In this document: positions 10,295-64,000 of the stretch, in pieces
Numbering within the stretch: the first letter of the stretch is position 1
Layout of the letters: each line of letters starts with the position of its first letter
Assembly (NCBI RefSeq): GCF_900446255.1
Contig: NZ_UIGI01000001.1
Location: 1,762,763 to 1,826,762 of the forward strand
Length of the DNA: 64,000 nt
From: Buttiauxella agrestis
GTDB taxonomy: Bacteria > Pseudomonadota > Gammaproteobacteria > Enterobacterales > Enterobacteriaceae
Reading direction: 5' to 3'
The notes under the pieces: generated by a model
Databases searched by the model: none
What the model was told of the DNA's origin: nothing
Seen by the model: the letters and a program-made list of their open reading frames with translations, nothing else
Made by a program: the position numbers and the translations under genes

Positions 10295-10768
10295 TCAGCC
10301 CGGTCTTTTTCCATTGATGTAAATATCAGGACGGGTAATGGTCCAAGCGTAATTTTCCCGATTTACGGGTTCATAGCCAAGCTTTTCATAAAGCCAGGGA
10401 GCGGTTGTTGTAAACAACATGACCCTACGAAGCTTGTCAAAACACGGGTGGTTATGAATGCATTCCATGAGCCATCTTCCGAGCCCGTCACCCTGATATT
10501 TCTCAAGTATGTAAACATCGCAGAGGTAAGCGAAGGTGGCATAGTCCGTTATCAACCGCGCGAATCCTATTTGGGATTCATTATGATAAATGCCAAAGTT
10601 AAGGCTGTTTTCTATTGATGCACAGACGATGTCCAGATCAATGCCTTTAGCCCACGTAGACCTCGTCAGATATTGATGGACAGCCTGTACATCGAGCATT
10701 GTTTTGTCTGTACTGACCAAATAGTCGTTCATTCGCCATTCGTGTATCGCTGAAATACTCATCTTCAT
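10295..10768 (-). CDS. GNAT family N-acetyltransferase
   Basis: Acetyl-CoA-dependent N-acetyltransferase of the GNAT fold, up to 157 residues. The central motif A is clear (LCDVYILEKYQGDGLGRWLMECI, with the Q/RxxGxG/A acetyl-CoA loop as YQGDGLG), followed by the C-terminal WLYEKLGYEPV motif. The substrate is unknown. The start is uncertain: ATG at 10768, at 10762 (better spaced from AGACAGG) or at 10732. It stands alone, with no operon partner. Confidence 0.8.
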   Translation of the reverse strand: MKMSISAIHEWRMNDYLVSTDKTMLDVQAVHQYLTRSTWAKGIDLDIVCASIENSLNFGIYHNESQIGFARLITDYATFAYLCDVYILEKYQGDGLGRWLMECIHNHPCFDKLRRVMLFTTTAPWLYEKLGYEPVNRENYAWTITRPDIYINGKRPG

Positions 10769-10977
10769 ACCTGTCTCTATGATGTCGTGAAATTAATTAA
10801 ATCCTTATTCGATGCGTTTCACATCTGGATGACGCTCGGTTGCGGCTTTATGGAAAATGTCACTCAGCAATCATTAAAAATGATTAATCAGTAAAAACTA
10901 TATATTTGAGCTTATCTTACTATGCGTCCAGACTGAATCCAGTCTCATTCACTCTTACTGGAAAACTGAGGTAAAAG

Positions 10978-11964
10978 ATGGTCCATAGAATCGATGTGCA
11001 TTCACACTTTCTGCCCGAACGCTACCGTGCAGCGCTTGCCATTGCAGGTCATTCGAAGCCATCGGGGATGCCTGCCATTCCGGAGTGGAGTGTTAATGAA
11101 CACCTTGAAATGATGGACCGCAACCAGATTGGCAGCGCTATCCTTTCTGTCTCAGCGCCAGGTGTCCATTTTGGTGACAACGCGGCTGCCCGTGACCTGG
11201 CCCGTTATGTGAATGAGGAAGGGGCAAAAGTCGCGCAGGGCAATCCCCGCCGTTTTGGTATGTTTGCCACATTACCGCTGCCTGATGTCGACAGTGCGCT
11301 CAATGAGCTGGACTATGCCTTCGATACGCTGAAAGCTGATGGGGTGGTACTGGAAAGTAATTTCCATGGTATCTATCTCGGCGATGCCCGATTCGATCCG
11401 GTGTTTGAGGAATTAAATCGCCGACACGCGAAGGTATTCATTCACCCGACTAACCCGCATTGCCCGTGCTGTCAGGTTCAGCCCAAGGGCGAAGACGCGG
11501 CATCACTTCCGCCAATCGGTTATCCATTCCCGATGATTGAATTTATGTTCGAAACCACGCGCGCGGTGTTCAATTTACTGCTTTCCGGGACGCTGAATCG
11601 CTTCCCAAATGTGCAAATTATCGTGCCGCATGCAGGTGCGACAATCCCGGTGCTGGCAGATCGGGTGGCGGGTATTTCTCCTGCGCTGGGTCTGCCGGAG
11701 GAGCTTGATGCATCGAAATTTATGGCTTCATTGCGCGGTATGTATTATGACCTGGCGGGATTCCCACTTCCGCGACAGCTTAAGTCCTTGCTGGAAATAG
11801 CCGATCCAAAACATATCTTGTACGGCAGTGATTATCCTTATACGCCGGAGGCGCTGGTCACCGCGCTTGCCAGACAACTTGACGATAGCTCCCTACTAAC
11901 GACTGAGCTACGGGCAGATTTTATGCGCAATAATGCACTTAATCTCTTCCCACGATTTGCTTAA
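10978..11964 (+). CDS. ACMSD-type amidohydrolase
   Basis: 328-residue metal-dependent hydrolase or decarboxylase of the amidohydrolase superfamily, COG2159 (aminocarboxymuconate semialdehyde decarboxylase-like). The metal ligands His8 and His10 lie in DVHSHFLP; later candidates are the histidine in KVFIHPTNP (about 159), in VPHAGATIP (about 220) and the aspartate in YGSDYPYTP (about 280). Family members decarboxylate or hydrolyse aromatic-derived or keto acids; the substrate here is not known. The ATG at 10978 has GAGG at a good distance. No catabolic operon adjoins it. Confidence 0.85.
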   Translation: MVHRIDVHSHFLPERYRAALAIAGHSKPSGMPAIPEWSVNEHLEMMDRNQIGSAILSVSAPGVHFGDNAAARDLARYVNEEGAKVAQGNPRRFGMFATLPLPDVDSALNELDYAFDTLKADGVVLESNFHGIYLGDARFDPVFEELNRRHAKVFIHPTNPHCPCCQVQPKGEDAASLPPIGYPFPMIEFMFETTRAVFNLLLSGTLNRFPNVQIIVPHAGATIPVLADRVAGISPALGLPEELDASKFMASLRGMYYDLAGFPLPRQLKSLLEIADPKHILYGSDYPYTPEALVTALARQLDDSSLLTTELRADFMRNNALNLFPRFA

Positions 11965-12197
11965 TGGCGCTTGCCTGGCTTTTTAGAGGGCATCTTTATA
12001 AATTCAGAATGGATGCGACAGGCGCAGACCATCAGGTCCTTCAACCTGACCGCTTCGTTCAAGAAGCGGTCACTGCTTATCCTCGAAGCCAGGGGGCATT
12101 GTAAGTCTGGTAAGCAACCCGCCATCTTCCTTAATTGTTCGAAATTGATACTCCGACTAACTGAGTCACCACGCCTACGATAGTCCAACGGACATTT

Positions 12198-12824
12198 TCA
12201 GTTTTTGATTTCCTTGAGGTGCTTGTAAACAGTGGCTCGTCCCATAGAGAGCACGTTAGCAATGTAGTCTGCGGAGTTTCTGACGGTGAATGCACCCTGG
12301 CGATAGAGTTCAGTCACCAGTTCTTTTTTCTGCTGGCGAGACAGAGTTGAAAGCGAAGTATTATTTTCATTCAGCCACTGATGGAGAAAAGTATTAATTT
12401 TTTCCTGCCAGTCATGTTTAAAAAGCTGGACGGGTTGTGGCTGCAAACGGTTAACAGACAGGAACATCTCCAGCGCATTTTTCGCATCATCAAGCAGTGT
12501 CGTGCTGAAATTGATGCAAAAAATATATTCGGCTTCACCTTCCACGTTTGCCCGGATACTCACCGAACGCATCTTCTTACCATCCCAGTTCAGCTTTTCA
12601 TAAGGGCCGGTCATGCTTTCAAGGTCATGAAGCGAAAGTTCTTCTAACCCAGCATCATCCCCGATGCTCCGTTTGGAAATATTATTGGCAAGCCAGGCAA
12701 TTTTACCGCTTTTAACGCTGTGTATAGCGACTTCTACCACCGGGTAAAATAGCGCGGCGATTCCATCTGCCATCGCTTTTAGCGTGGCAAACTGCTCATC
12801 TTTAATGCTTTTATTTTCGTTCAA
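12198..12824 (-). CDS. YheO/DauR-type transcriptional regulator
   Basis: 208-residue DNA-binding protein. Residues 1-115 match the YheO PAS-like domain (ALFYPVVEVAIHSVKSGKIAWLANNISKRSIGD) and residues 150-205 form the YheO-type helix-turn-helix (FTVRNSADYIANVLSMGRATVYKHLKEI). DauR of Pseudomonas, a member of this family, controls D-arginine catabolism. The start is a TTG at 12824, preceded by GGAAGGA. It lies 28 bases after the cyclodeaminase-like gene on the same strand and probably controls that operon. Confidence 0.85.
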   Translation of the reverse strand: MNENKSIKDEQFATLKAMADGIAALFYPVVEVAIHSVKSGKIAWLANNISKRSIGDDAGLEELSLHDLESMTGPYEKLNWDGKKMRSVSIRANVEGEAEYIFCINFSTTLLDDAKNALEMFLSVNRLQPQPVQLFKHDWQEKINTFLHQWLNENNTSLSTLSRQQKKELVTELYRQGAFTVRNSADYIANVLSMGRATVYKHLKEIKN

Positions 12825-12852
12825 ACTTTGATTCCTTCCGTCTGATAACCAT

Positions 12853-13797
12853 TTACGCTTTTAATTGCGCCAGAATGCTGGCTGAAATCTGCGCATCCTG
12901 CACGCCGAGCCCGGTCAGGTCGGCAATGGTAATATCAGCCTCACCACGGACATACTGTGAGCGATCTGACAGTAAACTACCCAGCTCAATGACCTTCGCA
13001 TTTGCGCAATTATCAACCGGTAAATGGCTAAGTTCGCCATATGCACCGCACTGCTTAAGAGAATCAGCCACAATACAATCGGCTTTTGCCATCAGTTTTG
13101 CGTCAAGCTCTTGCTTACCAGGGCCATCTGCACCCACGGCGGTGATATGTGTCCCAGGCTGAACCCACTCGGCAAGCACCAGGGGTTCGGTTGATGGCGT
13201 GGCGGTGACGATAACCGAAGCGCCGCTTGCGGCTTGCTGTTCGCGCGTCGTTGTAACCAGCTTAATATCGGTATCAGAAAGCTGCTCGCGGAATCGCGCA
13301 AGCGATGCTTCACTACGTCCCCAGACAATCACCTCACGGCAGGGAGTCAGTTCCAGAAGCTGGCGCAGTTGAAGCTCCGCCTGTAAGCCAGTGCCGAAGA
13401 TAGCAATCCGCTCTATGCACTCAGGAAGCAGCATTTCCGCGGCAATGCGTCCTGCCAGTGCGGTACGTACGCCAGTCAACCAACCATGATCGTCAAGAAG
13501 TACCAGGGGTTGTCCCGTTTGTGCCGAGAAAACCAGATTGAGCCCGTCATTGCTGGGCAATCCAAGGGAAGGATTGTTATAAAAACCGGTCGAGATTTTT
13601 ACACAGAAACTTTCGCTACCCTCAATCCAGGCGGATTTGATACAGCAGTCGCCTTCGGCTTGCGTGAAGGCAAACTGCTGGGCTGGTGGAAGCTGCACTC
13701 GCCCGGCGGAAAACGCTTCAAAACCCGCTTTCAGTCTGGTCAGCGCATCGTTTTGGTTAAATAGCGCTTTGATTTCTTCAGGGCCGATTATTTTCAT
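12853..13797 (-). CDS. Ornithine cyclodeaminase/mu-crystallin family protein
   Basis: 314-residue NAD(P)-binding protein of the OCD/mu-crystallin family, which contains ornithine cyclodeaminase, alanine dehydrogenase-like enzymes, ketimine reductases, EutC and the iminosuccinate reductase BhcD. The Rossmann motif IFGTGLQAELQLRQL lies near residues 122-140, and the active-site arginine and lysine regions (KISTGFYNN, LTGVRTALA) are present. The ATG at 13797 overlaps the stop of the upstream dehydratase gene as ATGA, so the two enzymes are translationally coupled. Because the partner is a serine/threonine dehydratase-like enzyme, reduction of an imino acid is a more likely role than ornithine cyclisation. 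This is inference. Confidence 0.85.
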   Translation of the reverse strand: MKIIGPEEIKALFNQNDALTRLKAGFEAFSAGRVQLPPAQQFAFTQAEGDCCIKSAWIEGSESFCVKISTGFYNNPSLGLPSNDGLNLVFSAQTGQPLVLLDDHGWLTGVRTALAGRIAAEMLLPECIERIAIFGTGLQAELQLRQLLELTPCREVIVWGRSEASLARFREQLSDTDIKLVTTTREQQAASGASVIVTATPSTEPLVLAEWVQPGTHITAVGADGPGKQELDAKLMAKADCIVADSLKQCGAYGELSHLPVDNCANAKVIELGSLLSDRSQYVRGEADITIADLTGLGVQDAQISASILAQLKA

Positions 13798-14759
13798 TTC
13801 ACCGCACCGGCGAATTTTTCCAGCGTGATATTTTTGCCACACAGTACCACTGCGACCCGCTTGCCGCGCCATTGCCCGGCCTGCTGCATAAAGGCTGCCA
13901 TCGCCACACCCGCCGCGCCTTCCACCATCCAGCGCTCATAACGGGCCAGGGTTTTCATCGCCGCTTTGATTTCTTCTTCGCTGACCAGCACACAGTCATC
14001 GACAACCGCCTGGCAGAGTGGGAAGGTGATTGTGCCGGGTTCCAGGCCGCCCGCCGTGCCGTCTGAAAGCGTATCGTGCTCTTCCGGCTCCACAATTTCG
14101 CCCGCCTGAAGTGAGGCGTACATCGCCACAGACGCTTCAGGCCAACAGGCCACAATGCGGGTTTCCGGTGACAGATGTTTCATTACCGCACCGATGCCGG
14201 AAATCAAACCACCACCGCCCACTGCGACAAAAATGGCATCCAGATTTTTTTCTGTTTCAAGCATCTCAAACGCGATGGTGCCTTGCCCGGCGATCACGTC
14301 TTCATCGTTGTAGGGTGAAACAAAGGTGATCCCTTCACGAGCCGCGGTTTCTGCCGCCTCCAGTTCAACACTGAGTGCGTCCTTTTCGACCATATTCACC
14401 GTTGCGCCGTACGCGCGAATAGCGTCAATCTTCAAAGGCGAAGCGGTGGCTGGCACAAAAACAGTAACCGGAACGCCTGCCATTGCCCCCGCCAGTGCCA
14501 TACCTTGCCCGTGATTACCCGAAGACGCCGTGATCACCCCCTGCGCCTTTTGTTCCGGGGTCAGCAGACGAATCTTGTTACTGGCGCCACGGAATTTAAA
14601 CGAGCCGGTGTGTTGCAGATGCTCACCCTTAAGAAACAGATCGCACCCGTACAGTGCCGAAAGCATGTGGCTGCGATCGAGCGGCGTTTTTCTGACCTGA
14701 GGGCGAAGCGCGGTATGCGCTTCCTGGCTGGCGGTAAAAAGTTTGAGTAGTTGTGACAT
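13794..14759 (-). CDS. PLP-dependent threonine/hydroxyamino acid dehydratase
   Basis: 321-residue fold-type II PLP enzyme of the threonine dehydratase/serine racemase family. The PLP lysine lies in TGSFKFRGA (near residue 54), the serine/asparagine phosphate-handling loop in SSGNHGQG, and the glycine loop in VAVGGGGLISG. It is of catabolic length, with no C-terminal regulatory ACT domain. Relatives include EutB (hydroxyectoine pathway), hydroxyaspartate dehydratases and BhcB. First gene of an operon with an OCD-like reductase and a YheO-type regulator. Exact substrate unknown. Confidence 0.87.
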   Translation of the reverse strand: MSQLLKLFTASQEAHTALRPQVRKTPLDRSHMLSALYGCDLFLKGEHLQHTGSFKFRGASNKIRLLTPEQKAQGVITASSGNHGQGMALAGAMAGVPVTVFVPATASPLKIDAIRAYGATVNMVEKDALSVELEAAETAAREGITFVSPYNDEDVIAGQGTIAFEMLETEKNLDAIFVAVGGGGLISGIGAVMKHLSPETRIVACWPEASVAMYASLQAGEIVEPEEHDTLSDGTAGGLEPGTITFPLCQAVVDDCVLVSEEEIKAAMKTLARYERWMVEGAAGVAMAAFMQQAGQWRGKRVAVVLCGKNITLEKFAGAVK

Positions 14760-14919
14760 AGTGACGTCCTGAATGTGTATTTATTATCTAATATAGACTT
14801 TTAGTACACATTGTCTATCGCCAATTTGTGTATTGCAGGACATCGAAAAGCGTTGTTAAGTCCGCACTGTATTCATTGTTGGGGAGTCGGTCTGCGTGGC
14901 TAAACAGTCCATAAAAAAA

Positions 14920-14939
14920 GGCCACCTATTCGGTGGCCT
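14920..14939 (-). terminator. Rho-independent terminator of ydfZ
   Basis: On the minus strand AGGCCACC and GGTGGCCT form an 8-bp stem with a 4-base loop, followed by seven T residues (14912-14919 read in reverse). It lies about 60 bases after the ydfZ stop. Confidence 0.8.
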
Positions 14940-15001
14940 CAAATAATGAGTTTTCAGGGTTATTTTATTTGTAAAATAACGTGCTAAATCGATATGCCCT
15001 A

Positions 15002-15205
15002 TCAGTGAAGTTCAAGTCTAACCAACTCCATCGGGCAGAACACACCTTCACAACCTTCGATTTCAACACATTCAGAACGACGAATTTGTTCGGCTGTTTT
15101 ACCTTCGCCGTGAATGGCCTTAATGACACCAGTCAGACCCTTATTGAAAACCATAACACGGCTGCCAGTTGCGATAGCGTTACGGTAGCAATCATAGGTC
15201 AACAT
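15002..15205 (-). CDS. ydfZ: YdfZ family protein (putative selenium-associated)
   Basis: 67-residue protein that aligns along its whole length with E. coli YdfZ (TYDxxRNAIxTGSRVMV, TAEQIRR, VEGCE, LxLVRL-like end). YdfZ has been linked to selenium binding, but its role is not settled. The third of three consecutive ATG codons (15205) fits the 67-residue family length and the spacing from AAAGGAGG. An FNR-like site lies upstream, in keeping with the known anaerobic induction of ydfZ. Confidence 0.88.
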   Translation of the reverse strand: MLTYDCYRNAIATGSRVMVFNKGLTGVIKAIHGEGKTAEQIRRSECVEIEGCEGVFCPMELVRLELH

Positions 15206-15282
15206 CATCATTCCTCCTTTTTGTTGTATCAAGATGAGATGATTTAACGGCAAATAAATAGCTCTGAATCGGCAAAAATGTT

Positions 15283-15296
15283 TTGAGCTAAGTCAA
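15283..15296 (-). promoter_or_regulatory. FNR-like site upstream of ydfZ
   Basis: On the minus strand TTGACTTAGCTCAA matches TTGAT-N4-ATCAA with one symmetrical change per half. It sits about 80 bases upstream of the ydfZ start and partly inside the 3' end of the AraC-type gene. Confidence 0.5.
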
Positions 15297-16288
15297 AATT
15301 TTATAAGTTTCAGCGGCTCAGGAAAAGACGGAAGTCGGTTGGAGTGCTTTATTGATGACTTCGCTTTAGTCGCAGTTCTTAGCCCTAACTGCTGGCGATA
15401 TTCTCCCGGAGTTACCCCTGCGAATCGCTTGAAGGCCCGGCCTAAAGTAATGCCTGAATCGTAGCCGACTCGCTCTGCAATATTTGTGAGAGTGAGCTGA
15501 GGATGTCGCAGTAAACAACGAGCGCGGTACATTCTCCAGTGCGTCAGATACTCCCCCGGCGTTTCCCCGGTGACGGCTTTAAAGTGAACGGCAAAAGACG
15601 AACGCGACATCCCCGCTTCTGAGGCCAGCATTTGCAGGCTCCAGGGTCTGGCGATGTCATTATGAATGCGTCTGACCACGCGGCCCAGCTTGCTATCAGC
15701 CAAGGCCGCAATCCAGCCTCGCTGCGTTTGTTCGCGTAAACAATGCGCTCTTATTGCCTGGACAAACATGACGTCCGCAAGTCGGCTGACGACTATGCGC
15801 GAGCCCAGATGTTGTTCGGCGGTTTCGATTGCCAGCAGCTTTAGCGTCGCTTCTAACAGCGGTGAACGGGTTGCATCTGCGGGGATCACCACGACGGAAG
15901 GGAGCATCGACAGCAGCGGTTCTGCGCCTGCGCTGTCAAAAGTAAAATAGCCACACAGAATATCGGCCACTTCGCCATCGCCTCCAAAACTGAGATCTTT
16001 GCCGGGGCATTGTGCAAAAACATCCTCGCACCAGCGCGTCGGAGTAGCGGGGTGATCCACCAGAGAAAACAGCGTCTGAGGCTGCACCAGAAAGCCATCA
16101 CCTTGTTGCAGCTCAATGGGATTTTCAATGCCCTCGGCAACCAGTAAGCCACGTCCGGAAACCATAAATCCAAAGCGAATCGAAGCACTTTTGACAAAGC
16201 TTATCCCCCAGGGGGCATGTGGCAAAAGGCGTGAATAGAGCGCGCTTTGCAGGTGCATTGCCGCGAATACATCGTCGAGAGGATCCAT
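15293..16288 (-). CDS. AraC family transcriptional regulator with cupin domain
   Basis: 331-residue regulator. The N-terminal half (about 10-190) is a cupin-type ligand domain of the AraC_binding/cupin_6 type (RFGFMVSGRGLLV, GDGFLVQPQ). The C-terminal part (about 210-310) holds two AraC helix-turn-helix motifs (WSLQMLASEAGMSRSSFAVHFKAVTGETPGEYL and LTNIAERVGYDSGITLGRAFKRF). It is divergent from an alcohol dehydrogenase gene 116 bases away, the usual layout for a regulator and its target. Confidence 0.88.
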   Translation of the reverse strand: MDPLDDVFAAMHLQSALYSRLLPHAPWGISFVKSASIRFGFMVSGRGLLVAEGIENPIELQQGDGFLVQPQTLFSLVDHPATPTRWCEDVFAQCPGKDLSFGGDGEVADILCGYFTFDSAGAEPLLSMLPSVVVIPADATRSPLLEATLKLLAIETAEQHLGSRIVVSRLADVMFVQAIRAHCLREQTQRGWIAALADSKLGRVVRRIHNDIARPWSLQMLASEAGMSRSSFAVHFKAVTGETPGEYLTHWRMYRARCLLRHPQLTLTNIAERVGYDSGITLGRAFKRFAGVTPGEYRQQLGLRTATKAKSSIKHSNRLPSFPEPLKLIKF

Positions 16289-16404
16289 TTCATACTCGCT
16301 TTTATGGACGTTAAGGCAGTAATAATGCGATTTCAGTCATTCTACGTCCAGCGAAAAAATTCTACTGTACAGCGACATGCTCAACTAATTTAAGTGAAAT
16401 CAAA

Positions 16405-17418
16405 ATGCAAAGTTATCGCCTTGAGAGTTTTGGAAGTCTGGACGGTTTGAAGAGGGTCGAAGAACAGCAACCTGTTCCTGGGCGCAATCAGGTTTTGATC
16501 AGAGTCCGCGCCTGTAGCCTTAATTATCGTGATCTGGCCATTGCGCACGGAACCAGCACTTTATCTCCCAGAGCCGGGCTAATCCCTTTATCGGACGGCG
16601 TGGGTGAGGTTGTTGCCACGGGCGATTGTGCGAGTCTGTTTAAAAATGGAGACAGGGTAGCAGGAACATTCTTTCCTTACTGGTTTGACGGCGCTTTGGA
16701 TAGCGCCGCTGGGCGCGGAACCTACGGTAATCAGGCGGATGGCTGGCTAACGTCATATAAGGTGGTTGACGAAGGATCGCTGGTGTCGATACCTGATTAC
16801 CTGAGCTGGGAGCAGGCTGCGACCCTCCCTTGCGCGGCGATTACGGCGTGGAACAGCCTTCAACAGTCGCGCCCGATACGGCCAGGTGAAACGGTACTGA
16901 CGCAGGGTACTGGCGGTGTGTCACTGTTTGCCGTGCAGTTCGCCAAAATCATGGGCGCACGGGTGATTGCACTCACTTCAAATGATGCAAAAGCCCAGCT
17001 CTTGTCTACTCTTGGAGCCGATCATGTCATCAATTATCAACGGCATCCCGACTGGTCAGTTAAAGTGTGCGAACTGACTCAAGGGCAGGGGGTTGAACGG
17101 GTCGTTGAAATCGGTGGGCCGGGCACGTTAAACCAGTCTTTACTTTCGACGGCACCAGGAGGTGAAATTGCCCTGCTGGGATTTGTTGCCAATGGAGATA
17201 AGTCTATAGATTTTATGACACTGTTTAAAAGTGGAGCCACTGTTAGACCTTTCAGTGTCGGCAGTCGCGAGGATTTTATCGCTATGAATCGCACACTGAA
17301 TATGAGTCAGCTTCAGCCAGTAATTGATAAAGTCTTTAAGTTTGAAAATGCGATTGAAGCCTGGCGCTATTTTGATAGCCGACAGCAGATCGGCAAAGTG
17401 GTTATCTCGATGAATTGA
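16405..17418 (+). CDS. Zinc-independent NAD(P)-dependent alcohol dehydrogenase-like (MDR) protein
   Basis: 337-residue medium-chain dehydrogenase/reductase. The catalytic domain starts MQSYRLESFGSLDGLKRVEE; the usual zinc-binding GVCxSD motif is replaced by SLNYRDLAIAHG, so it resembles the zinc-free quinone oxidoreductase-like branch. The nucleotide-binding region has TQGTGGVSLFAVQFAKIMGARVIAL near residues 170-195. The substrate is unknown. It is probably the target of the divergent AraC-type regulator. Confidence 0.86.
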   Translation: MQSYRLESFGSLDGLKRVEEQQPVPGRNQVLIRVRACSLNYRDLAIAHGTSTLSPRAGLIPLSDGVGEVVATGDCASLFKNGDRVAGTFFPYWFDGALDSAAGRGTYGNQADGWLTSYKVVDEGSLVSIPDYLSWEQAATLPCAAITAWNSLQQSRPIRPGETVLTQGTGGVSLFAVQFAKIMGARVIALTSNDAKAQLLSTLGADHVINYQRHPDWSVKVCELTQGQGVERVVEIGGPGTLNQSLLSTAPGGEIALLGFVANGDKSIDFMTLFKSGATVRPFSVGSREDFIAMNRTLNMSQLQPVIDKVFKFENAIEAWRYFDSRQQIGKVVISMN

Positions 17419-17443
17419 TGTTGCGAAATAAGGTGGCATGGCT

Positions 17444-17492
17444 CAGTCCGGGCAATGATTTGGGTTATCTGGCGATTGCCCAACCCGGACTG
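17444..17492. terminator. Large hairpin between converging genes
   Basis: CAGTCCGGGCAAT (17444-17456) pairs with the segment ending ATTGCC..CCCGGACTG (17475-17492); the outer nine bases match perfectly. It lies between the dehydrogenase and the mesD stop and could act on both strands. It may also be a REP-type element. Confidence 0.55.
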
Positions 17493-17525
17493 TGTTTATT
17501 CGATGATCTACATTTGGCGATGTTA

Positions 17526-18554
17526 TTAAGCCGAGAGTTCTCTGCGGACGATTTCTGCGCCTGCACTTAAAGCACTCAACTTGCCTCGTGCTACCTGGCG
17601 AGGTAAAGGGGTCATGCCGCAGTTGGTGCTAGGATAGAGCTTGTCGGCGTCGACAAACTGTAGTGCTTTACGCAAAGTATTCGCGACTTCTTCTGGTGTC
17701 TCAATAATATGGGTTGCTACGTCAATGGCGCCGACCATGACTTTTTTCCCTCGAATGAGTTCAATGAGGTCCATTGGTACTCGAGAATTCTGACATTCCA
17801 GTGAAATTATATCGATGGCAGACGCCTGCAATTTGGGGAAAAACTCCTCATATTGCCGCCATTCCGAACCCAGCGTCTTTTTCCAGTCTGTATTGGCTTT
17901 GATGCCGTAACCGTAGCAAATATGTACGGCCGTTTCACATTTAAGCCCTTCAACGGCTCTTTCTAACGCAGCAATTCCCCAGTCATTCACCTCGTCAAAA
18001 AATACATTAAATGCAGGTTCATCAAACTGGATAATATCAACGCCAGCCGCCTCTAATTCTCTGGCTTCTTGATTAAGAATTTTGGCAAATTCCCAGGCGA
18101 GTTTCTCGCGGCTTTTATAATGGCTATCATAAAGCGTATCGATCATGGTCATCGGACCCGGCAACGCCCATTTAATGGGTTGCTTTGTTTGCTGACGTAA
18201 AAACTTAGCATCTTCAACGAAAACAGGCTTCTGGCGAGAAACAGGGCCAACAACAGTGGGTACACTCGCATCGTAGCGATTGCGAATTTTAACAATCTCA
18301 CGCTTCTCAAAATCAACGCCGCTGAGGTGTTCAATAAATGTCGTGACAAAGTGCTGACGCGTTTGCTCGCCGTCGCTGACGATATCAATCCCGGCATGTA
18401 GCTGATCTTCCAGGCACAAACGTAGAGCATCTTGTTTGCCCTCAACTAATTCATCACCTTGTAGTTTCCAGGGAGACCAAAGCGTTTCAGGTTGTGCAAG
18501 CCAGGACGGTTTAGGCAAACTGCCCGCAGTCGAAGTGGGTAATAATATTTTCAT
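17526..18554 (-). CDS. mesD: Folate-independent methionine synthase (core-MetE type)
   Basis: 342-residue protein corresponding to the C-terminal catalytic half of MetE without its folate-binding N-terminal half. It keeps the TIM-barrel and zinc-binding features: an early TAGSLPKP, DGEQTRQHF, FDEPAFNVF, HICYGYG (His and Cys ligands) and a late cysteine in PSTNCGMTPLP. Core-MetE proteins of the MesD type, found next to a DUF1852 protein (MesX), have been shown in Acinetobacter to make methionine without folate or vitamin B12. The gene lies 26 bases after mesX in the same direction. Confidence 0.87.
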   Translation of the reverse strand: MKILLPTSTAGSLPKPSWLAQPETLWSPWKLQGDELVEGKQDALRLCLEDQLHAGIDIVSDGEQTRQHFVTTFIEHLSGVDFEKREIVKIRNRYDASVPTVVGPVSRQKPVFVEDAKFLRQQTKQPIKWALPGPMTMIDTLYDSHYKSREKLAWEFAKILNQEARELEAAGVDIIQFDEPAFNVFFDEVNDWGIAALERAVEGLKCETAVHICYGYGIKANTDWKKTLGSEWRQYEEFFPKLQASAIDIISLECQNSRVPMDLIELIRGKKVMVGAIDVATHIIETPEEVANTLRKALQFVDADKLYPSTNCGMTPLPRQVARGKLSALSAGAEIVRRELSA

Positions 18555-40473: not shown

Positions 40474-41259
40474 TTAATTTGCGGGAATTTCACTCACAAT
40501 ATCGGCGAGTAAATTAAAGACTTCACTAAATAAGTGTTCAGTGAAGGGAGCCATTAAAGGAATTAATGCCGTCATCACCAACATACCGATGGCGAGCGTC
40601 AGCGGGAAACCGATCACAAATACCGAAAGCTGGGGCGACATACGGTTGAGCAAACCGAGCGCAATGTTGAGCGTCAGCAGTAAAGTAATCAGCGGTAATG
40701 CCAGCATTAATCCATTGAGGAAGATTAAACCACCTGCCCGTGTCAGCGCCATAAACGCGTTGCTGTTTATCGGATTGCCGCCAATCGGCAGGGTGTGAAA
40801 AGTATCGACCAGCATTGAAATCAGCCATAAATGACCGTTAAACACCAGAAACAGCAGCATCGCCAGCATATCCATAAAACGGGCGAGTACCGGCATATTC
40901 AGGCGACTTCCGGGGTCGAAGAAGGTGGCGAAAGAGAGTCCCATTTGCAAACCAATAATTTCGCCGGCGGTGCGTACCGCAGCAAAAGCAAACTGCATGG
41001 TGAAGCCCAGCGCGATACCAATCAGGATTTGCTGCGCGGCGAGCCAAAAGCCTGCTGCCGAGAAAATCGTCACGTCTGTTGCGGGAAGCGTCGGGGCCAC
41101 AAGCCAGGTAATCATCAGCGCGAGGCCAATTTTGACTTTTTTAGAGATAGCCCGCTCGCTTAAAATTGGGGCGGTAGAAATTAAAGCCAGAATACGCAGA
41201 AAAGGCCAGAAGCCCATGCTCAATAGAGTGAGCCACTGGCTGCTATCAATATGAATCAT
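40474..41259 (-). CDS. fliR: Flagellar export protein FliR
   Basis: 261-residue membrane protein of the flagellar type III export gate (FliPQR core). Several hydrophobic segments are seen, with the family region [27 protein letters not shown]. The start overlaps the fliQ stop by four bases. Last gene of the long fliF-fliR operon; rcsA follows in the same direction after 216 bases. Confidence 0.95.
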
Positions 41260-56204: not shown

Positions 56205-56231
56205 GTATCGGCACTTTAGCGGCAAAGTTTA
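56205..56231 (-). promoter_or_regulatory. Sigma-28 (FliA) promoter of fliDST
   Basis: On the minus strand TAAA (56231-56228), exactly 15 bases, then GCCGATAC (56212-56205). This fits the FliA consensus TAAA-N15-GCCGATAA with one mismatch. Confidence 0.88.
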
Positions 56232-56314: not shown

Positions 56315-56341
56315 TAAAGTTCAAAAATAGTGTGCCGATAC
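56315..56341 (+). promoter_or_regulatory. Sigma-28 (FliA) promoter of fliC
   Basis: TAAAGTT (from 56315) and GCCGATAC (56334-56341), with 15 bases between TAAA and GCCGATAC. This is a near-perfect class 3 flagellar promoter 68 bases upstream of fliC. Confidence 0.92.
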
Positions 56342-57702: not shown

Positions 57703-57734
57703 AAAGCCAATCCTTCGGGGTTGGCTTTTTTTTT
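57703..57734 (+). terminator. Terminator of fliC
   Basis: AAAGCCAATCC and GGGTTGGCTTT form a stem capped by a TTCG tetraloop, followed by a long T-run. It separates fliC from the modification island, which must have its own promoter or rely on readthrough. Confidence 0.92.
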
Positions 57735-57758: not shown

Positions 57759-60700
57759 TTGAATAACCCCCTTGCACAGGCTGTTTTCTGCGAATTGCCT
57801 GAAAGAAATATTGTTAACGTAAGGCTGATTTGCCGTTTCTCTCAACAGGATATTCCCGTGGCTCATATCGCTGATACCGAAGCTGTCGCTCTGTCGACAA
57901 CGACCCAACATGGTTCACCTCAACTTGATAACTATGCCGCACCTCAGCATCTGCGCGCCGTTGCCCACTTATACGGCATTACGGCCCCCGATCTGAAAAA
58001 TGCCCGGGTTCTGGTGCTAGGTTGCGAAAGCGGAATAAATTTAATTCCCTTTGCAAGTGCCTGGCAGGGGGCTTCAGTTATCGGAATTGATATAGATGCT
58101 GATGCTATCAGCCGCGGACAGCATTGCATTTCTTCGGCGGGAATCGGCAACCTGGAATTATATTGCCTGCAACTCAATGAACTCTTAGCCAGTTTACCTG
58201 GCGAGCAGGATTACATTATTTTGCAGGGTATTTTTACGCTGTTGGATAACCCAACCCGTGAATCACTGCTGGCATATTGCCGCCAGCATTTGAGTCCTGA
58301 CGGCATTATCGCGATTAAATGGCCAACCTATCCGGGAGCAAAAACCAGCGAAACTCTCCGCGATGCGATGTTATTGCACAGCAGCCTTGCAACAACTCAG
58401 CAAGAAATAACCGCCAGTGCACGCGCAGTGGCAACCTGGCTTGAGCTGGGAATGAGCAAACAAAACCTGCAGCGTCTAAGCCTCGCTCCCTTGATTGATG
58501 AAGTTAATCAAAATAGCGATAGTGAACTGGCACTTAAGTATCTCTCTGGCCTGAATGAAGCAAACTATCTGGTGGACTTTAACGCCATGGTTGAGCGAAA
58601 CGGTTTGGCCTATGTGGGCGATGCGCATCCGTGGACTGAAATAGCGGATTTTTACGGCTCCGATGTGGCGCAGTTGCATAAAACAATTTGCCCGGTAGCT
58701 AACAAAGTAGTGCAACAACAGTACCTGGACTTTGCGACCAACCGTGCTGAACGCTTCAGTTTGCTGGCGGCTGCCAGTCGGCAAGGAGAAATTCTTGCAG
58801 CACCTGATAAACAAAAACTTAAAGAATTGAATTGGGCTGGCAATTTCCAGCGGCTTTTTGGTGATAAAAATGGCCCGGAAAACGCCCACTTTACGCCGCA
58901 GGGAGATCTGCTTCGTACCGAGGATGAGCTGACGCTACAAGCCCTAGACCTATTGGGTGATGCCTGGCCATTAAGTTTAAGCTTCGAACAATTGGTGTTT
59001 CATACCACCAAACCGGAAAGCGATGATGCTAACCACGCTGATCGCATGCTGAACGTTCTCTATTCGCTATTCCGTAAAGGTTCTGAAAGCTTGTTGTATT
59101 GCTTTGGGGCTTGTCCTTATAGTCTTAGCGAAAATAACACCTTAAAACCACTTTCTGGGCTTGTTGAAATGAACCACCCGGAAATAGTTTCGCCGCTTGG
59201 TTTTAATTTGTGGTATCAGTCTATTCCTCTGGATCTTGCGGAATATCAATTATTAAGCAGCGATCCACGGTGTATCAATCCAGAAACTTTGCCGCTGCTC
59301 GATGCATTGCGCCGTAAAGGAATGATGACTGGCTCGCCGCGTGCCTGGCAAAAACTAATGCAGGCGGTGATTGGTCTGCAGGATCCAAACAATATTATCG
59401 CCTATGTAAATAGCCTGATGCTATTTACCCATTATGGAATGGAGACTCGCTTTCAGATAACGAATGCCGCATTGGTGAGTGATATTGCTCGCAAGAAACA
59501 TCCCGGTTATTCATCATTCCCGGCGCTGGATAGCCGAATTGAAAAGCGAGCGAGCCAACTGTTAAATCAGGGGCGCTATAACGAGGCCTGTGATTATTTA
59601 GCCACTCTTGCACAAGAGCAAACTAATAATCCGCATCTGTTGCACCGCCTGGCACAAGTCTATTTTAAACTTTCATGTTATGACGATGCCTTGCGTACTT
59701 TCGCATTAGCGTTTTCATTAGAGTCTAGCTCCTGGGCAATGTATTACGACTATACCTTGTTGCTTGGGAAGCTAAGACATTACTGGTATGCGGAAAAGTT
59801 GAGTCGCTATTGTTTACGATTTAATCATCGCCCAACCATGATATGGTTACAACTTTCTGAGTTATATCAGGAAGATAAAAACTATAAACTGGCAGAAGTT
59901 TGTATCCGTAAGGCGCTGGAGGTCGAGCCATCAAACAGTAATGCACTTTCAAGCATGGCGACGTTACTGAGTTCGCAGTCGAAAATTGTTGATGCAGTTA
60001 GCTGGATGCGCAAAGCCTGCGAAAGCGCGCCTGCTGAATTCACTTATTTCACTAACTACTTGTTTGGTCTTTCTCACTCACCGGATATTACCCCGGAGTG
60101 TTTCTTTAGTGAGCACCAAAAATATGGGCGTATGGCCAGCCGCTGGGCGAAACAGCAGAACGTGACTTTTTCTCATCACAATGAAAAAGACCCAGCCCGT
60201 AAATTACGTGTCGGGTTTGTTTCTGGTGACTTCGGTAATCATCCGGTGACTAACTTTATTCGCCCAATGTGGGATGCTCTGGATCAGGATAAATTTGCAC
60301 TTTATGCCTGGCAGACCTCCCCGTTGAATGATGTGATGACACTTCAACTCAAACGCACCGCAACCGCTTGGTCCGATGCCAAAAGCATCAGCAATATCGA
60401 GCTGGCAAAAGAAATCCATGCGGCTGAAATTGATATTCTGATCGACCTTTCCGGGCACACCGACCATAACCGTTTACCGGCCTTTGCCTTGAAACCGGCG
60501 CCTGTTTCTATGTCGTTTATCGGCTACCCAGGAACCACCGGACTTAGCGAAATGGATTATGTCATTGTCCATAACAAACTTGCACAGCCGGGACTGTTGG
60601 AAAAACAGTTCACCGAAGAACTGATCTACATGCCGTTTAGTAAGCAGTTTGAGCCAGTGGATAACGCACCAGACATCAAACCATTGCCTGCGCTAAGCAA

Positions 60701-61310
60701 CGGTTATTTCACCTATGCGAGCTTTAACCGCCCGAGCAAATTAAACGATGTTGTGCTGGAAACCTGGGCAAAAATTCTCACAGCACAGCCGGACGCCAGG
60801 TTACTGATTGGCTTTATGTTGGGTTCGGACTTAATTGCTGAAATTAATAACAAAATGCTCGGATGGGGCGTGCTGCCGCAACAGCTTATCTTCCGCGAAA
60901 GGACTCAGCTTTCAACTTATCTTGATATGCATAATGAAGTCGATCTGCTGCTCGATTGCTTCCCATATACCGGCGGAACCACGACCAACTATGCCTTGTG
61001 GATGGGCGTGCCTACCTTAACGCTAGCCGGGGAAACTCTTGTTTCGCGCCAGGGCGTGGCCAATATGTGCCAGTTCGGCCTGGATGAATTTGTGGTCAAC
61101 TCTATCGATGAATATGTCGAAAAAGCACTGGCGTTCAGCAAAGACCTAAAAATGCTAGATGATTTACGGGCAACGATGCGCGTGCGAATCGAGTCGATGG
61201 GTGATTCAACAATTTCCCCTGCCTGGTATTTAGAACAAACGCTGCGCAAAGCCTGGGAAATATATTGTGAAACCGGTGGAGCCGAAGGTTTTGTTGTCCC
61301 GGAAAATTGA
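57759..61310 (+). CDS. Methyltransferase-TPR-OGT/SPINDLY-type glycosyltransferase fusion
   Basis: A 1183-residue three-part protein. (a) A class I SAM-dependent methyltransferase domain (about 50-200: VLVLGCESGINLIPFA as motif I, GIDIDADAI as motif II), followed by a region like the methyltransferase regulatory domain (to about 330: LSGLNEANYLVDFNAMVERNGLAYVGDA). (b) TPR-like helical repeats, about 600-770. (c) A C-terminal SPINDLY/OGT-type GT41 domain (about 815-1165) with SGDFGNHPV (catalytic-site histidine), DLSGHTDHNRLPAFALKPAP, GYPGTTG, FNRPSKL (donor-phosphate lysine) and GGTTTNYALWMG...GETLVSR. The start is TTG at 57759 with AAGGGG before it; a GTG at 57858 is an alternative. Probable role: transfer of a sugar to flagellin Ser/Thr, with methylation of the sugar. 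Role inferred from position and domains. Confidence 0.85.
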   Translation: MNNPLAQAVFCELPERNIVNVRLICRFSQQDIPVAHIADTEAVALSTTTQHGSPQLDNYAAPQHLRAVAHLYGITAPDLKNARVLVLGCESGINLIPFASAWQGASVIGIDIDADAISRGQHCISSAGIGNLELYCLQLNELLASLPGEQDYIILQGIFTLLDNPTRESLLAYCRQHLSPDGIIAIKWPTYPGAKTSETLRDAMLLHSSLATTQQEITASARAVATWLELGMSKQNLQRLSLAPLIDEVNQNSDSELALKYLSGLNEANYLVDFNAMVERNGLAYVGDAHPWTEIADFYGSDVAQLHKTICPVANKVVQQQYLDFATNRAERFSLLAAASRQGEILAAPDKQKLKELNWAGNFQRLFGDKNGPENAHFTPQGDLLRTEDELTLQALDLLGDAWPLSLSFEQLVFHTTKPESDDANHADRMLNVLYSLFRKGSESLLYCFGACPYSLSENNTLKPLSGLVEMNHPEIVSPLGFNLWYQSIPLDLAEYQLLSSDPRCINPETLPLLDALRRKGMMTGSPRAWQKLMQAVIGLQDPNNIIAYVNSLMLFTHYGMETRFQITNAALVSDIARKKHPGYSSFPALDSRIEKRASQLLNQGRYNEACDYLATLAQEQTNNPHLLHRLAQVYFKLSCYDDALRTFALAFSLESSSWAMYYDYTLLLGKLRHYWYAEKLSRYCLRFNHRPTMIWLQLSELYQEDKNYKLAEVCIRKALEVEPSNSNALSSMATLLSSQSKIVDAVSWMRKACESAPAEFTYFTNYLFGLSHSPDITPECFFSEHQKYGRMASRWAKQQNVTFSHHNEKDPARKLRVGFVSGDFGNHPVTNFIRPMWDALDQDKFALYAWQTSPLNDVMTLQLKRTATAWSDAKSISNIELAKEIHAAEIDILIDLSGHTDHNRLPAFALKPAPVSMSFIGYPGTTGLSEMDYVIVHNKLAQPGLLEKQFTEELIYMPFSKQFEPVDNAPDIKPLPALSNGYFTYASFNRPSKLNDVVLETWAKILTAQPDARLLIGFMLGSDLIAEINNKMLGWGVLPQQLIFRERTQLSTYLDMHNEVDLLLDCFPYTGGTTTNYALWMGVPTLTLAGETLVSRQGVANMCQFGLDEFVVNSIDEYVEKALAFSKDLKMLDDLRATMRVRIESMGDSTISPAWYLEQTLRKAWEIYCETGGAEGFVVPEN

Positions 61311-61315
61311 TATCG

Positions 61316-61361
61316 CGCTAATTAGCGCAACTCGTAGCGTAGATGGTTGCGTTAATTGGCG
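61316..61361 (+). promoter_or_regulatory. Long RNA hairpin between the fusion gene and the aminotransferase gene
   Basis: CGCTAATTAGCGCAAC (61316-61331) and GTTGCGTTAATTGGCG (61346-61361) would pair over 16 bp with two G-U pairs and a 14-base loop. The left arm itself contains the perfect dyad GCGCTAATTAGCGC (61315-61328). No T-run follows, so it may be a processing, stability or attenuation element rather than a simple terminator. Confidence 0.5.
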
Positions 61362-61456
61362 TAGAAAAAGGGCTGTGTTTAGCTCATTAGCCAATCCTAA
61401 ACAAATTATTATTGGCACACTGCTGTAGTCAGATGGAAACCTTCAAGGGGATTAAC

Positions 61457-62620
61457 GTGAAAGACAATATTTATGTAACCAGCCCATTACTACCTCCTCT
61501 TGAAGAGTTTATTCCTTATCTGGAACAGATTTGGCAGAACAAACAACTCACCAACGCTGGCCCTTTTCACCAGCAACTGGAACAAGCATTAGCCGATTAT
61601 CTCGGTGTTGAACATTTATGTTTATTTGCCAACGGAACACTCGCGCTGCTGACGGCGTTTCAAACGCTACGTGTTACCGGTGAAGTCATCACAACGCCTT
61701 ATTCTTTTGTCGCCACATCCCACAGCCTTTTATGGAATGGTCTGACGCCGGTATTTGCCGATATTGATCCGCAAACTTTTAACCTTGATCCTGACAAAAT
61801 CGAGGCGCTGATAACCCCGCAAACCTCAGCTATTTTGCCAGTGCATTGTTATGGTATTCCTTGCGATACCGACAAAATCCAGCGCATAGCAGATACTTAC
61901 GGCCTGAAGGTTATTTACGATGCAGCTCATGCTTTCGGCGTAAAACAAAATGGCACCAGCATCCTGAATTGTGGTGACCTTTCGGTGTTGAGCTTCCATG
62001 CGACTAAAGTATTTAATACCTTTGAGGGCGGGGCGATAATATGCCCGGATGCAAAAACCAAACAGCGTATTGATTATTTAAAAAACTTCGGTTTCGCTGA
62101 TGAAACGGTAGTTATGGCTCCAGGGATAAATGCCAAAATGAATGAGGTACAGGCATCGTTTGGAATGTTGCAATTACAGTATATTGATACAGCGCTTAAC
62201 GATCGCGCAGAAATATACCGTTACTATGTCGAATTAATTCAGTCGGAATTACCTGAAGTTGAGTTTTTGGCACCGCCAGAAAACGTTGAGTGGAATTACG
62301 CCTATTTCCCGGTGATGATTCGCCCTGGGCTCGCCGCGACAAGAGATGGCGTTTATCAAGCACTACGCCAGCAGAATATCTTTACGCGTCGTTATTTCTT
62401 CCCCCTTATCAGCTCATTCTCTATGTACCGCCATTTGCCTTCGGCCAAAATTGAAGGCTTACAAGTGGCAGATGCTGCCTCACAGGCGGTGCTGTGCTTA
62501 CCGATTTATCCTGGCCTTAGCCGTGCCGATCAGGAAAGAATTATCACGATTATGGCATCAAGCTTACGACCGCAAAAATCACCAGCGTTATCGCCTGAAC
62601 TTAATTTATTAAGCGCATAG
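61457..62620 (+). CDS. DegT/DnrJ/EryC1 (VioA-like) sugar aminotransferase
   Basis: 387-residue PLP-dependent aminotransferase acting on nucleotide-linked keto-deoxy sugars. The N-terminus VTSPLLPPLEEFIPYLEQIW, the internal aldimine lysine Lys184 in SFHATKVFNTFEGG, and YDAAHAFGV (PLP-binding aspartate) are standard for the family. The opening resembles VioA-type enzymes that make dTDP-4-amino-4,6-dideoxyglucose, but the exact sugar cannot be fixed. GTG at 61457 was chosen because AAGGGG precedes it; the frame extends 15 codons upstream. Second gene of the island. Confidence 0.88.
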   Translation: MKDNIYVTSPLLPPLEEFIPYLEQIWQNKQLTNAGPFHQQLEQALADYLGVEHLCLFANGTLALLTAFQTLRVTGEVITTPYSFVATSHSLLWNGLTPVFADIDPQTFNLDPDKIEALITPQTSAILPVHCYGIPCDTDKIQRIADTYGLKVIYDAAHAFGVKQNGTSILNCGDLSVLSFHATKVFNTFEGGAIICPDAKTKQRIDYLKNFGFADETVVMAPGINAKMNEVQASFGMLQLQYIDTALNDRAEIYRYYVELIQSELPEVEFLAPPENVEWNYAYFPVMIRPGLAATRDGVYQALRQQNIFTRRYFFPLISSFSMYRHLPSAKIEGLQVADAASQAVLCLPIYPGLSRADQERIITIMASSLRPQKSPALSPELNLLSA

Positions 62621-62637
62621 AATAGAGTGGTTTAGGT

Positions 62638-63336
62638 ATGAAGATTGCCATTATGCAACCCTATTTTTTTCCTTACATTGGCTATTTTCAGCTGATGGCG
62701 GTGGTGGATACTTTCGTAGTTTATGACAACATAAAGTACACCAAAAAAGGATGGATAAATCGTAACCGTATGCTGAGCAATGGCCAGGATGCGACATTTA
62801 GTTTGCCACTAAAAAAAGCATCGGATTCACTTTGCATCGTCGACCGCGAGCTATCACCTGAGTTTGATAAGCAAAAATTACTCAATCAAATTCGTGGTGC
62901 TTACGCTAAAGCCCCTTATTTCCAAGATATTTTTCCCCATATTGAAACTATCGTGAATTACCCTGCGGGGAATCTTTTCGATTATCTGTATCACTCCATA
63001 CGCAAAATAGCGGCGCTTCTCGAGCTAAAAACAAAATTCGTTATCTCTTCTTCACTGCCCGTTGATTCGACATTAAAAGGCCAGGATAAAGTTCTGTCCA
63101 TTTGCCGTGCATTAGATGCTCAAAGTTATATCAATGCGATTGGTGGTAGAGAGCTTTACAGCAAGGAAGATTTTTCCCAACAGGGTATTTCCCTGAGTTT
63201 TATCCAATCCGATGCGTTTGAATATCCTCAGTTTGGTTCTTCTTTTGTGCCCTGGTTGTCGATTCTCGATGTGTTGATGTTTAACTCCCTTGATGCGGTG
63301 TGTCACCGCATCAGGCATAACTACTCTCTGGTATAA
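62638..63336 (+). CDS. WbqC-like family protein
   Basis: 232-residue protein of the WbqC family (MKIAIMQPYFFPYIGYFQLM, DTFVVYDNIKYTKKGWINRNRM). The family is found in O-antigen and glycan clusters, usually beside DegT-type aminotransferases; the biochemical role is unproven, with N-acylation of an amino sugar one proposal. It starts 17 bases after the aminotransferase gene, and its stop abuts the next ATG. Confidence 0.88.
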   Translation: MKIAIMQPYFFPYIGYFQLMAVVDTFVVYDNIKYTKKGWINRNRMLSNGQDATFSLPLKKASDSLCIVDRELSPEFDKQKLLNQIRGAYAKAPYFQDIFPHIETIVNYPAGNLFDYLYHSIRKIAALLELKTKFVISSSLPVDSTLKGQDKVLSICRALDAQSYINAIGGRELYSKEDFSQQGISLSFIQSDAFEYPQFGSSFVPWLSILDVLMFNSLDAVCHRIRHNYSLV

Positions 63337-64000
63337 ATGATGTTCCATTGGAAAAAGCTCGGGAAAGTATTTACCCCGCAAAAGGTGACTGGTCGCCCGT
63401 GGCTTAATGCGTTCGCTCAAGCCCCTGCAACGCTGATTTTTGATGATTTTATTCGGGTCTATTTTTCATGCCGACCTGCTGCTGACGCAGCGGGTCAGTA
63501 TGTGAGTTACTCCGCATGGGTGGATCTTGACCGCAAGAATTTGCTCAATGTGCTCAGGGTTTCTGAGCAGCCAATTCTTCCACTTGGAGAATATGGGGAG
63601 TTCGATGAATTCGGAACTTATCCGGTGTCAGTGGCCCGTGACGGCGATAAAGTTCGGGCCTGGTATGCGGGCTGGACGCGTTGTGAATCGGTGCCTTTTA
63701 ATGTTGCCATCGGCACCGCTATTAGCGAAGACAACGGCGTAAGTTTTAAAAGAACGGGTTGCGGCCCGGTCATTAGCTATTCACCTGATGAACCGTTTGT
63801 GATGAGCGGCCCGAAAATTCGCCGTTTCGGTGAGCAGTGGCAGCTGTTTTATATCGCAGGACGCAAGTGGAAGTTGGTCGAAGGACGGGCGGAGCCAGTA
63901 TACAAAATCAGAATGGCAACCTCCGATGATGGGCTGCACTGGCAAAAGCTTAACCGAGATTTGATTGCTAGCCGTATTGAAGAAGATGAAGCTCAGGCAA
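63337..64000 (+). CDS. Sugar-hydrolase-like (beta-propeller) protein, partial
   Basis: An open frame of 221 codons that runs off the right edge; the 3' part is outside the window. It starts ATGATG directly after the WbqC-like stop (63334-63336). The sequence (LIFDDFIRVYFSCRP, VDLDRKNLLNVLRVSEQPIL, YPVSVARDGDKVRAWYAGWTR, SGPKIRRFGEQWQLFYIAGRKW, RMATSDDGLHWQ) has the repeating blade pattern of five-bladed beta-propeller glycosidase-like proteins (GH32/43/130-related). Activity is unknown. It is very probably part of the same island transcript. Confidence 0.8.
   Translation, partial: MMFHWKKLGKVFTPQKVTGRPWLNAFAQAPATLIFDDFIRVYFSCRPAADAAGQYVSYSAWVDLDRKNLLNVLRVSEQPILPLGEYGEFDEFGTYPVSVARDGDKVRAWYAGWTRCESVPFNVAIGTAISEDNGVSFKRTGCGPVISYSPDEPFVMSGPKIRRFGEQWQLFYIAGRKWKLVEGRAEPVYKIRMATSDDGLHWQKLNRDLIASRIEEDEAQA

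Follow-up and report, generated by a model that had tools for sequence, protein, structure and literature searches.

An island of sugar-related genes stands directly 3′ of the flagellin gene fliC in Buttiauxella agrestis. It occupies the end of the 64,000-nucleotide stretch analyzed here (the window; contig NZ_UIGI01000001.1, positions 1,762,763 to 1,826,762 of the forward strand) and is best read as a flagellin glycosylation island (FGI), a kind already described, for which a gene set that is almost its twin has been published. A hairpin resembling an intrinsic terminator follows fliC, and behind it lie four co-directional open reading frames (ORFs), the last of which is cut by the window end; fliD, fliS, and fliT are on the opposite side of fliC and divergent. 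Pfam matches assign the ORFs to a methyltransferase–glycosyltransferase fusion (Glyco_transf_41, 1e-43; MethyTransf_Reg, 4e-16), a DegT-type aminotransferase (DegT_DnrJ_EryC1, 2e-97), and a WbqC protein (WbqC, 2e-71); the cut gene has no Pfam match in the window and gives weak GH32/GH130-type matches, as for a propeller protein. A sequence-only reading of the window had described a terminator and four co-directional genes of these types after fliC, and the ORFs, Pfam matches, and hairpin bear it out. Its impression of tight spacing holds for the last two intergenic gaps (17 and 0 bases) but not for the gap between the fusion and DegT genes (101–146 bases, by the DegT start chosen). Within the window, G+C content is 50.8% ahead of the island and 46.4% inside it.

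The closest island is found in Buttiauxella sp. B2 (locus L001, the same contig as G006/L093, with 100% identity of the compared genes), in which the fusion, FliD, and FliC are 79%, 92%, and 90% identical to those of the window. The complete B2 island contains seven genes: the fusion, DegT, WbqC, propeller 1 (321 aa), propeller 2 (322 aa), GNAT, and a class I methyltransferase. It ends before fliA and fliZ, both identified by reading translations. The window island probably continues as in B2, and its apparent lack of an end, remarked on in the sequence-only reading, is an effect of the window edge. At the fliC–fliA site of 12 genomes from the genus, the two genes are adjacent (approximately 170 bases apart) in 10, separated by the island in one (G006), and separated by a GT2-type gene in one (G012). 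Downstream of fliC, the window and L001 have a terminator that is like that of Enterobacter sp. kpr-6 (L002) and unlike those of empty-site congeners, while the DNA 3′ of the island in L001 matches congeners, an indication that the terminator arrived as part of the insert. A megablast search of the island against E. coli genomes returned nothing among 20,395 records. The gap in G012 (L089 10433-13912) is occupied by a lone gene whose 1159-aa product contains two GT2 stretches, making it another type of island within the genus. A congener also carries a second FliA-like gene (54% identical; G002:C30:103238-103945), possibly belonging to a second flagellar system.

FGIs were reported in 307 of 2,000 Enterobacteriaceae strains and sorted into 42 types (De Maayer and Cowan 2016, PMC4875605). 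GT41 was present in 198 strains, with methyltransferase domains in all but one GT41 type, and aminotransferases were present in 242; Buttiauxella scored 0 of 2 (PMC4875605). The island shares with these FGIs its place (directly after fliC in the window and between fliC and fliA in L001), a GT41 protein with a methyltransferase domain, DegT, a lower G+C content, and a patchy distribution. It differs from them in that WbqC is not named in the main text of the survey, whose section 4 likewise mentions neither a propeller nor a glycosylase gene. By description, the nearest counterpart is the fliA–fliC insert of Dickeya zeae WH1, in which a methyltransferase, a glycosylase, WbqC, DegT, and a methyltransferase-regulatory-domain protein are among seven genes; two of the seven are hypothetical proteins, and functional interpretation is absent from the section that reports them (PMC9650423). 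The gene set, which had been called distinctive, is indeed rare, but nearly the same set is on record in D. zeae WH1.

The island of Dickeya dadantii 3937 is the functional precedent, with six genes between fliA and fliC that include an OGT-type transferase and a nucleotide-sugar transaminase and are reported to modify FliC (PMC6637903). Mass spectrometry of FliC gave 32,170 Da for the wild type and 28,890 and 31,034 Da for two glycosyltransferase mutants; motility is said, with data not shown in that paper, to be unaffected (PMC6637903). Unlike the window island, it contains a second glycosyltransferase, for which a disaccharide is proposed, as well as carbamoyl-phosphate-synthase-like and oxidoreductase genes.

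Fusions of this type are found beside flagellin genes across the enterobacteria. In a survey of the family, 36 of 295 genomes match the fusion at E 1e-30 or better; 10 of these have distant GT41 matches only and were excluded, and the other 26, with full-length or split fusions, provide 27 loci. The fusion is downstream of and co-directional with a flagellin gene in 25 of the 27 (some approximately 1.7 kb apart), and chance placement beside fliC was rejected on this count. In L065 (G288, 10655-17833), its neighbors are FliP, FliR-type, and chemoreceptor genes, and the stretch fetched there lacks a flagellin gene; in L091 it is on the opposite strand, 2.7 kb from flagellin. Outside these counts, the GT41 gene of G269 (L092) likewise follows two flagellin genes. 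DegT neighbors the fusion in 24 loci, WbqC in five, and a propeller pair in one. Together with the FGI-like place and gene types and the D. dadantii precedent, the flagellin association supports the earlier proposal that the island modifies flagellin. A tandem pair of fusion genes follows two flagellin genes in G033 (L061 8712-15774), and G315 (L074, 10974-14428) has a similar island in which the fusion is split into two ORFs, an extra ORF lies between DegT and WbqC, and a remnant of GNAT is present.

The fusion starts at GTG 57858 and not at TTG 57759, as first read, because the stretch upstream of the GTG is conserved in Buttiauxella sp. B2 yet out of frame there, and the GTG, behind AGGA, is common to both fusion genes. 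By eye, a conserved leader precedes the fusion in the window and L001 and weakly in L002, but not in the other 27 of 30. TPR matches precede the GT41 domain (PF13844, 1e-43), which matches bacterial, plant SPINDLY, and animal OGT-type structures. Fusion residues H795 and K961 align with OGT residues H498 and K842, and both are identical in all 30 rows of a fusion alignment made without the split fusion of G315, L092, and duplicates (L003/L093 of L001; L004/L014 of L061). Because these positions are invariant, the GT41 transferase looks active.

The front half of the fusion contains PF10119 and matches the Rickettsia enzymes PKMT2 (5doo) and PKMT1 (5dnk). Like the fusion front, PKMT1/2 and Acinetobacter KmtA join a methyltransferase to a regulatory/dimerization part, but they are stand-alone enzymes that act on outer-membrane proteins, whereas the fusion adds TPR and GT41 and has no recognized C-terminal winged helix (PMC11784438). 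The middle of the fusion (residues 305-575) matches no PDB chain, so the middle and C-terminal winged-helix domains of the PKMTs were rejected for it; PKMT_2nd is present in the stand-alone relative of L095 and not in the fusion. Residue names for the S-adenosylmethionine (AdoMet) site were taken from PMC11784438 and mapped onto the fusions via alignment to Rickettsia PKMT. The residue equivalent to D102 of RpPKMT1 is Asp in 25 of 30 fusions, including that of the window; the residue equivalent to H146 is His in 18, Gln in the window, and Q, N, R, E, G, or P in the others; and the QYxDF motif retains its Q and its D in all 30.

This half may methylate the sugar, or act as a mere scaffold in some members, and never touch lysine, a reading to which we give slightly less than an even chance. 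The variation of the AdoMet-site residues across fusions points this way, as do the treatment of FGI methyltransferases as glycan modifiers in PMC4875605 and a class survey in which flagellin lies near stand-alone PF10119 genes in none of 35 loci (covering 36 PF10119 places in 27 of 274 class genomes, some on short contigs). The nearest solved relatives, however, are protein-lysine methyltransferases, and the sugar genes of the island include their own separate methyltransferase.

Alternatively, the fusion may both methylate and glycosylate flagellin, its front half acting on flagellin lysines and its GT41 half on Ser/Thr. The PKMT1/2 matches and the kept D102-like, H146-like, and QYxDF residues are consistent with such a two-headed enzyme, and KmtA is reported to methylate a surface fiber (PMC11784438). 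In G050, moreover, a stand-alone relative with PF10119 and PKMT_2nd (L095 9280-10917, minus strand) lies directly upstream of, and divergent from, four flagellin genes. The Gln of the window and the mixed residues of other fusions at the H146-like position, the unmatched residues 305-575, the class survey, and the placement of these domains under glycan methylation in PMC4875605 all argue the other way and leave dual activity on the unlikely side. The 35 loci led us to reject a general link between flagellin and stand-alone PF10119 methyltransferases, with the proviso that some contigs are short and the flagella of these genomes were not checked; G050, from another search, is an isolated case, and the 20 kb fetched around the stand-alone relative in G058 (L094) contain no flagellin gene.

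The six genes that follow the fusion in B2 recur outside enterobacterial islands as a cassette with the order DegT, WbqC, propeller 1, propeller 2, GNAT, and methyltransferase, of which DegT, WbqC, and part of propeller 1 fall within the window. Propellers are rare in the family survey (one of 295 genomes, G315; G006 is outside that sample). They are matched in 31 of 72,556 plasmid records (with 60-80% identity in 17) and in 23 of 398 genomes of a phylum survey, with a tandem pair in eight and a single, more distant propeller in the remaining 15 (five of which were fetched). All six genes stand in the same order on two plasmids (L132 and L133) and in L134, L135, L136, L138, and L140. L139 preserves this order, although two ORFs are inserted and its GNAT differs; in L137, only WbqC, the propeller pair, and GNAT are seen; and L141 is rearranged, with this GNAT undetected and a Formyl_trans_N gene next to the propeller pair. 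The accompanying transferase is a TPR-GT41 protein that lacks a methyltransferase domain in L134 and L138, GT61 in L133 and L139, and GT2 in L132, L135, L136, and L140, with GtrA also in L135. In L134, the cassette and GT41 are flanked on one side by flagellin and fliD relatives and on the opposite side by fliF and fliG. The recurrence of these sugar genes as a portable cassette across classes of Pseudomonadota appears to be new, and no description of the cassette as a unit was found in searches of open-licence papers.

Plasmid pRlvE of R. leguminosarum (L132), the sole Rhizobium plasmid opened, encodes DegT, WbqC, a glycosylase, a hypothetical protein, GNAT, and a methyltransferase, followed by a glycosyltransferase, with no flagellin within the 29 kb shown. 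Its WbqC gene is split by an IS3-family transposase gene (12039-13936) in an otherwise complete cassette. Plasmid pDOK1-4-1 of T. (Tateyamaria) omphalii (L133) has the same cassette order and then the GT61 gene. ORFs of 363 aa (L134 7434-8525) and 364 aa (L139 7322-8413) with similar N-termini follow the cassette methyltransferase. Among genomes with a single distant propeller, G833 (L142) carries relatives of GT41, WbqC, the methyltransferase, and DegT close by but differently ordered, and G782 (L146) has flagellin and fliD relatives within approximately 4 kb.

The DegT ORF of the window opens at 61412, and its start is probably ATG 61433 or GTG 61457, behind AAGGGG. The nearest solved relative is 2po3, named as a 4-dehydrase and presumably DesI. 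The propeller proteins resemble GH130/GH32-type enzymes in sequence: the full-length L001 propeller has Pfam glycoside hydrolase matches below gathering scores, and a profile of 22 propeller relatives matches PDB 7fip (6e-10) and 9fj8 (7e-8) over part of their length. D90 and E218 are kept in all 22, but the slot of the EDPR Asp found in the GH130 chains 7fip and 9fj8 is occupied by S, L, or C in every one. Because this Asp is replaced, ordinary phosphorolysis or hydrolysis by the propellers is doubtful; at a guess, they have a binding or transfer role in attaching a substituent. WbqC proteins are reported from O-antigen clusters or with a possible O-antigen role (PMC5532660, PMC5507510, PMC7848895), and among reports on WbqC (these three and PMC10434189), the gene of B. 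thetaiotaomicron adjoins a DegT gene.

The gene content and order, homology, place, absence from most congeners, and recurrence of the cassette are established. On this basis, we read the locus, with a probability of roughly 0.7, as a flagellin glycosylation island in the fliC–fliA hotspot that comprises two modules: the GT41 fusion and a six-gene cassette that would make a decorated deoxythymidine diphosphate (dTDP)-4-amino-4,6-dideoxyhexose for FliC. An RmlB/RffG-type enzyme encoded elsewhere in the genome would supply dTDP-4-keto-6-deoxyglucose, which DegT would aminate to dTDP-4-amino-4,6-dideoxyhexose. GNAT would then acylate the amine, the cassette methyltransferase would methylate, and WbqC and the propellers would help make or attach the substituent. 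In the cytoplasm and before export, the GT41 fusion would move the sugar from its nucleotide donor to Ser/Thr of FliC. The donor, its stereochemistry, the order of steps, the acceptor residues, and the roles of WbqC and the propellers are predictions.

dTDP-4-keto-6-deoxyglucose is the likeliest DegT substrate because rmlA and rmlB, above NCBIfam cut-offs, follow the cassette in L140, and rmlC is approximately 2 kb from that of L136, on the opposite strand. An RmlB-type enzyme is over the cut-off in all four genomes searched, including G006. Acylation is placed on the amine because the formyltransferase gene of L141 adjoins the propeller pair. Since GT41 is the sole recognized glycosyltransferase in the L001 island, the simplest product would be one decorated monosaccharide per site. 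The amino-deoxy sugar, perhaps acylated and methylated, that the sequence-only reading had predicted fits DegT together with the GNAT and methyltransferase of the B2 island. The viosamine island of Pseudomonas syringae reportedly differs from that of the window in gene set and transferases. Flagellin there carries a modified viosamine made by island genes (PMC3927599).

Several observations weigh against this proposal. DegT is below the cut-off for every one of the 11 NCBIfam families matched (the best model, DesI, TIGR04427, gives 283 bits against a cut-off of 650), so that neither the substrate nor the C3/C4 position is fixed. The RmlB family is also present in all 14 controls (over the cut-off in 10) and thus shows only that the substrate is at hand. 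An FdtA/QdtA-type gene in L133 and an FnlA-like gene in L139, each below cut-off and some kilobases away, leave room for other donors. The formyltransferase of L141 is also near PurN (128.6 bits, cut-off 150.1). Finally, among 10 cassette loci outside enterobacterial islands (eight from the phylum survey plus L132 and L133), flagellin is in the fetched stretch only in L134, and the cassette is therefore not flagellin-specific.

A wider version of the proposal holds that the cassette shared across Pseudomonadota classes makes a new decorated dTDP-4-amino-4,6-dideoxyhexose; that the propellers, of glycosidase/phosphorylase ancestry and lacking the EDPR Asp, are biosynthetic; that the cassette is plugged into the host's own transferase (GT41 for flagellin, GT61/GT2 for other targets); and that the enterobacterial GT41, fused to its PKMT-like half, may methylate as well as glycosylate flagellin. 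Taken whole, it is distinctly unlikely. Service to lipopolysaccharide, capsule, or another polysaccharide, with chance placement by fliC, would suit the O-antigen associations of WbqC and the cassettes with GtrA and GT2 (L135) or GT61 genes (L133, L139), but it is very improbable given flagellin by the fusion in 25 of 27 loci (with one of the other two beside flagellar export genes), GT41 as the only glycosyltransferase recognized in the L001 island with solved relatives that are protein glycosyltransferases by name, and the altered FliC of the D. dadantii island mutants (PMC6637903).

The flagellar features of the window are listed with the island genes in Table 1. Sigma-28-like boxes were scored against a consensus: three were found in the window against 0.61 expected, and at least three occurred in 2 of 100 shuffles. 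Besides those of fliC and fliD, the third match is at 40499; the window scan found no box for the island's own use 3′ of fliC at up to three mismatches. Unmodified FliC without Met has a computed mass of 43,283 Da. In the middle region of FliC, the Lys and Ser/Thr contents of the two island-bearing strains (window and L001) are not clearly different from those of 10 empty congeners, and target adaptation of flagellin was dropped as a candidate.

Table 1. Features of the fliC locus and island (window coordinates)
Feature	Position	Strand	Basis or remark
Sigma-28-like box, fliD side	56205..56231	-	2 mismatches to consensus
Sigma-28-like promoter box of fliC	56315..56341	+	2 mismatches to consensus
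fliC flagellin, presumed acceptor, 425 aa	56409..57686	+	Flagellin_N 2e-42, Flagellin_C 4e-33
Intrinsic-terminator-like hairpin after fliC	57703..57728	+	11 pairs and T-run
Fusion: methyltransferase, MethyTransf_Reg, middle region, TPR, GT41; 1150 aa	57858..61310	+	Start by comparison with L001
Protein-lysine-methyltransferase-like part, fusion residues 23-304	57924..58769	+	PDB 5doo 1e-33, 5dnk 2e-30
GT41 (OGT/SPY-like) part of fusion	60165..61271	+	PDB 5djs, SPINDLY 7y4i, OGT
DegT-type sugar aminotransferase	61433..62620	+	PF01041 2e-97; nearest PDB chain 2po3
WbqC family protein	62638..63336	+	PF08889 2e-71
Propeller 1 (GH130/GH32-like), cut by window end	63337..63999	+	90% identical to 321-aa gene of L001

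With this island, FGIs now include a genus for which the 2016 survey recorded none, and what was an anonymous gene cluster becomes a pathway that can be tested. Two of its features merit follow-up: a cassette that appears portable between classes, and a fusion front half that resembles lysine methyltransferases. The recurring cassette provides a function-by-context handle on the WbqC and propeller pair families, and because these six genes accompany more than one kind of transferase, one can look for their product both on enterobacterial flagellin and in a glycan of rhizobia. The question posed by the lysine-methyltransferase-like half of the enterobacterial GT41 fusions could be answered with peptide masses for any one of them.

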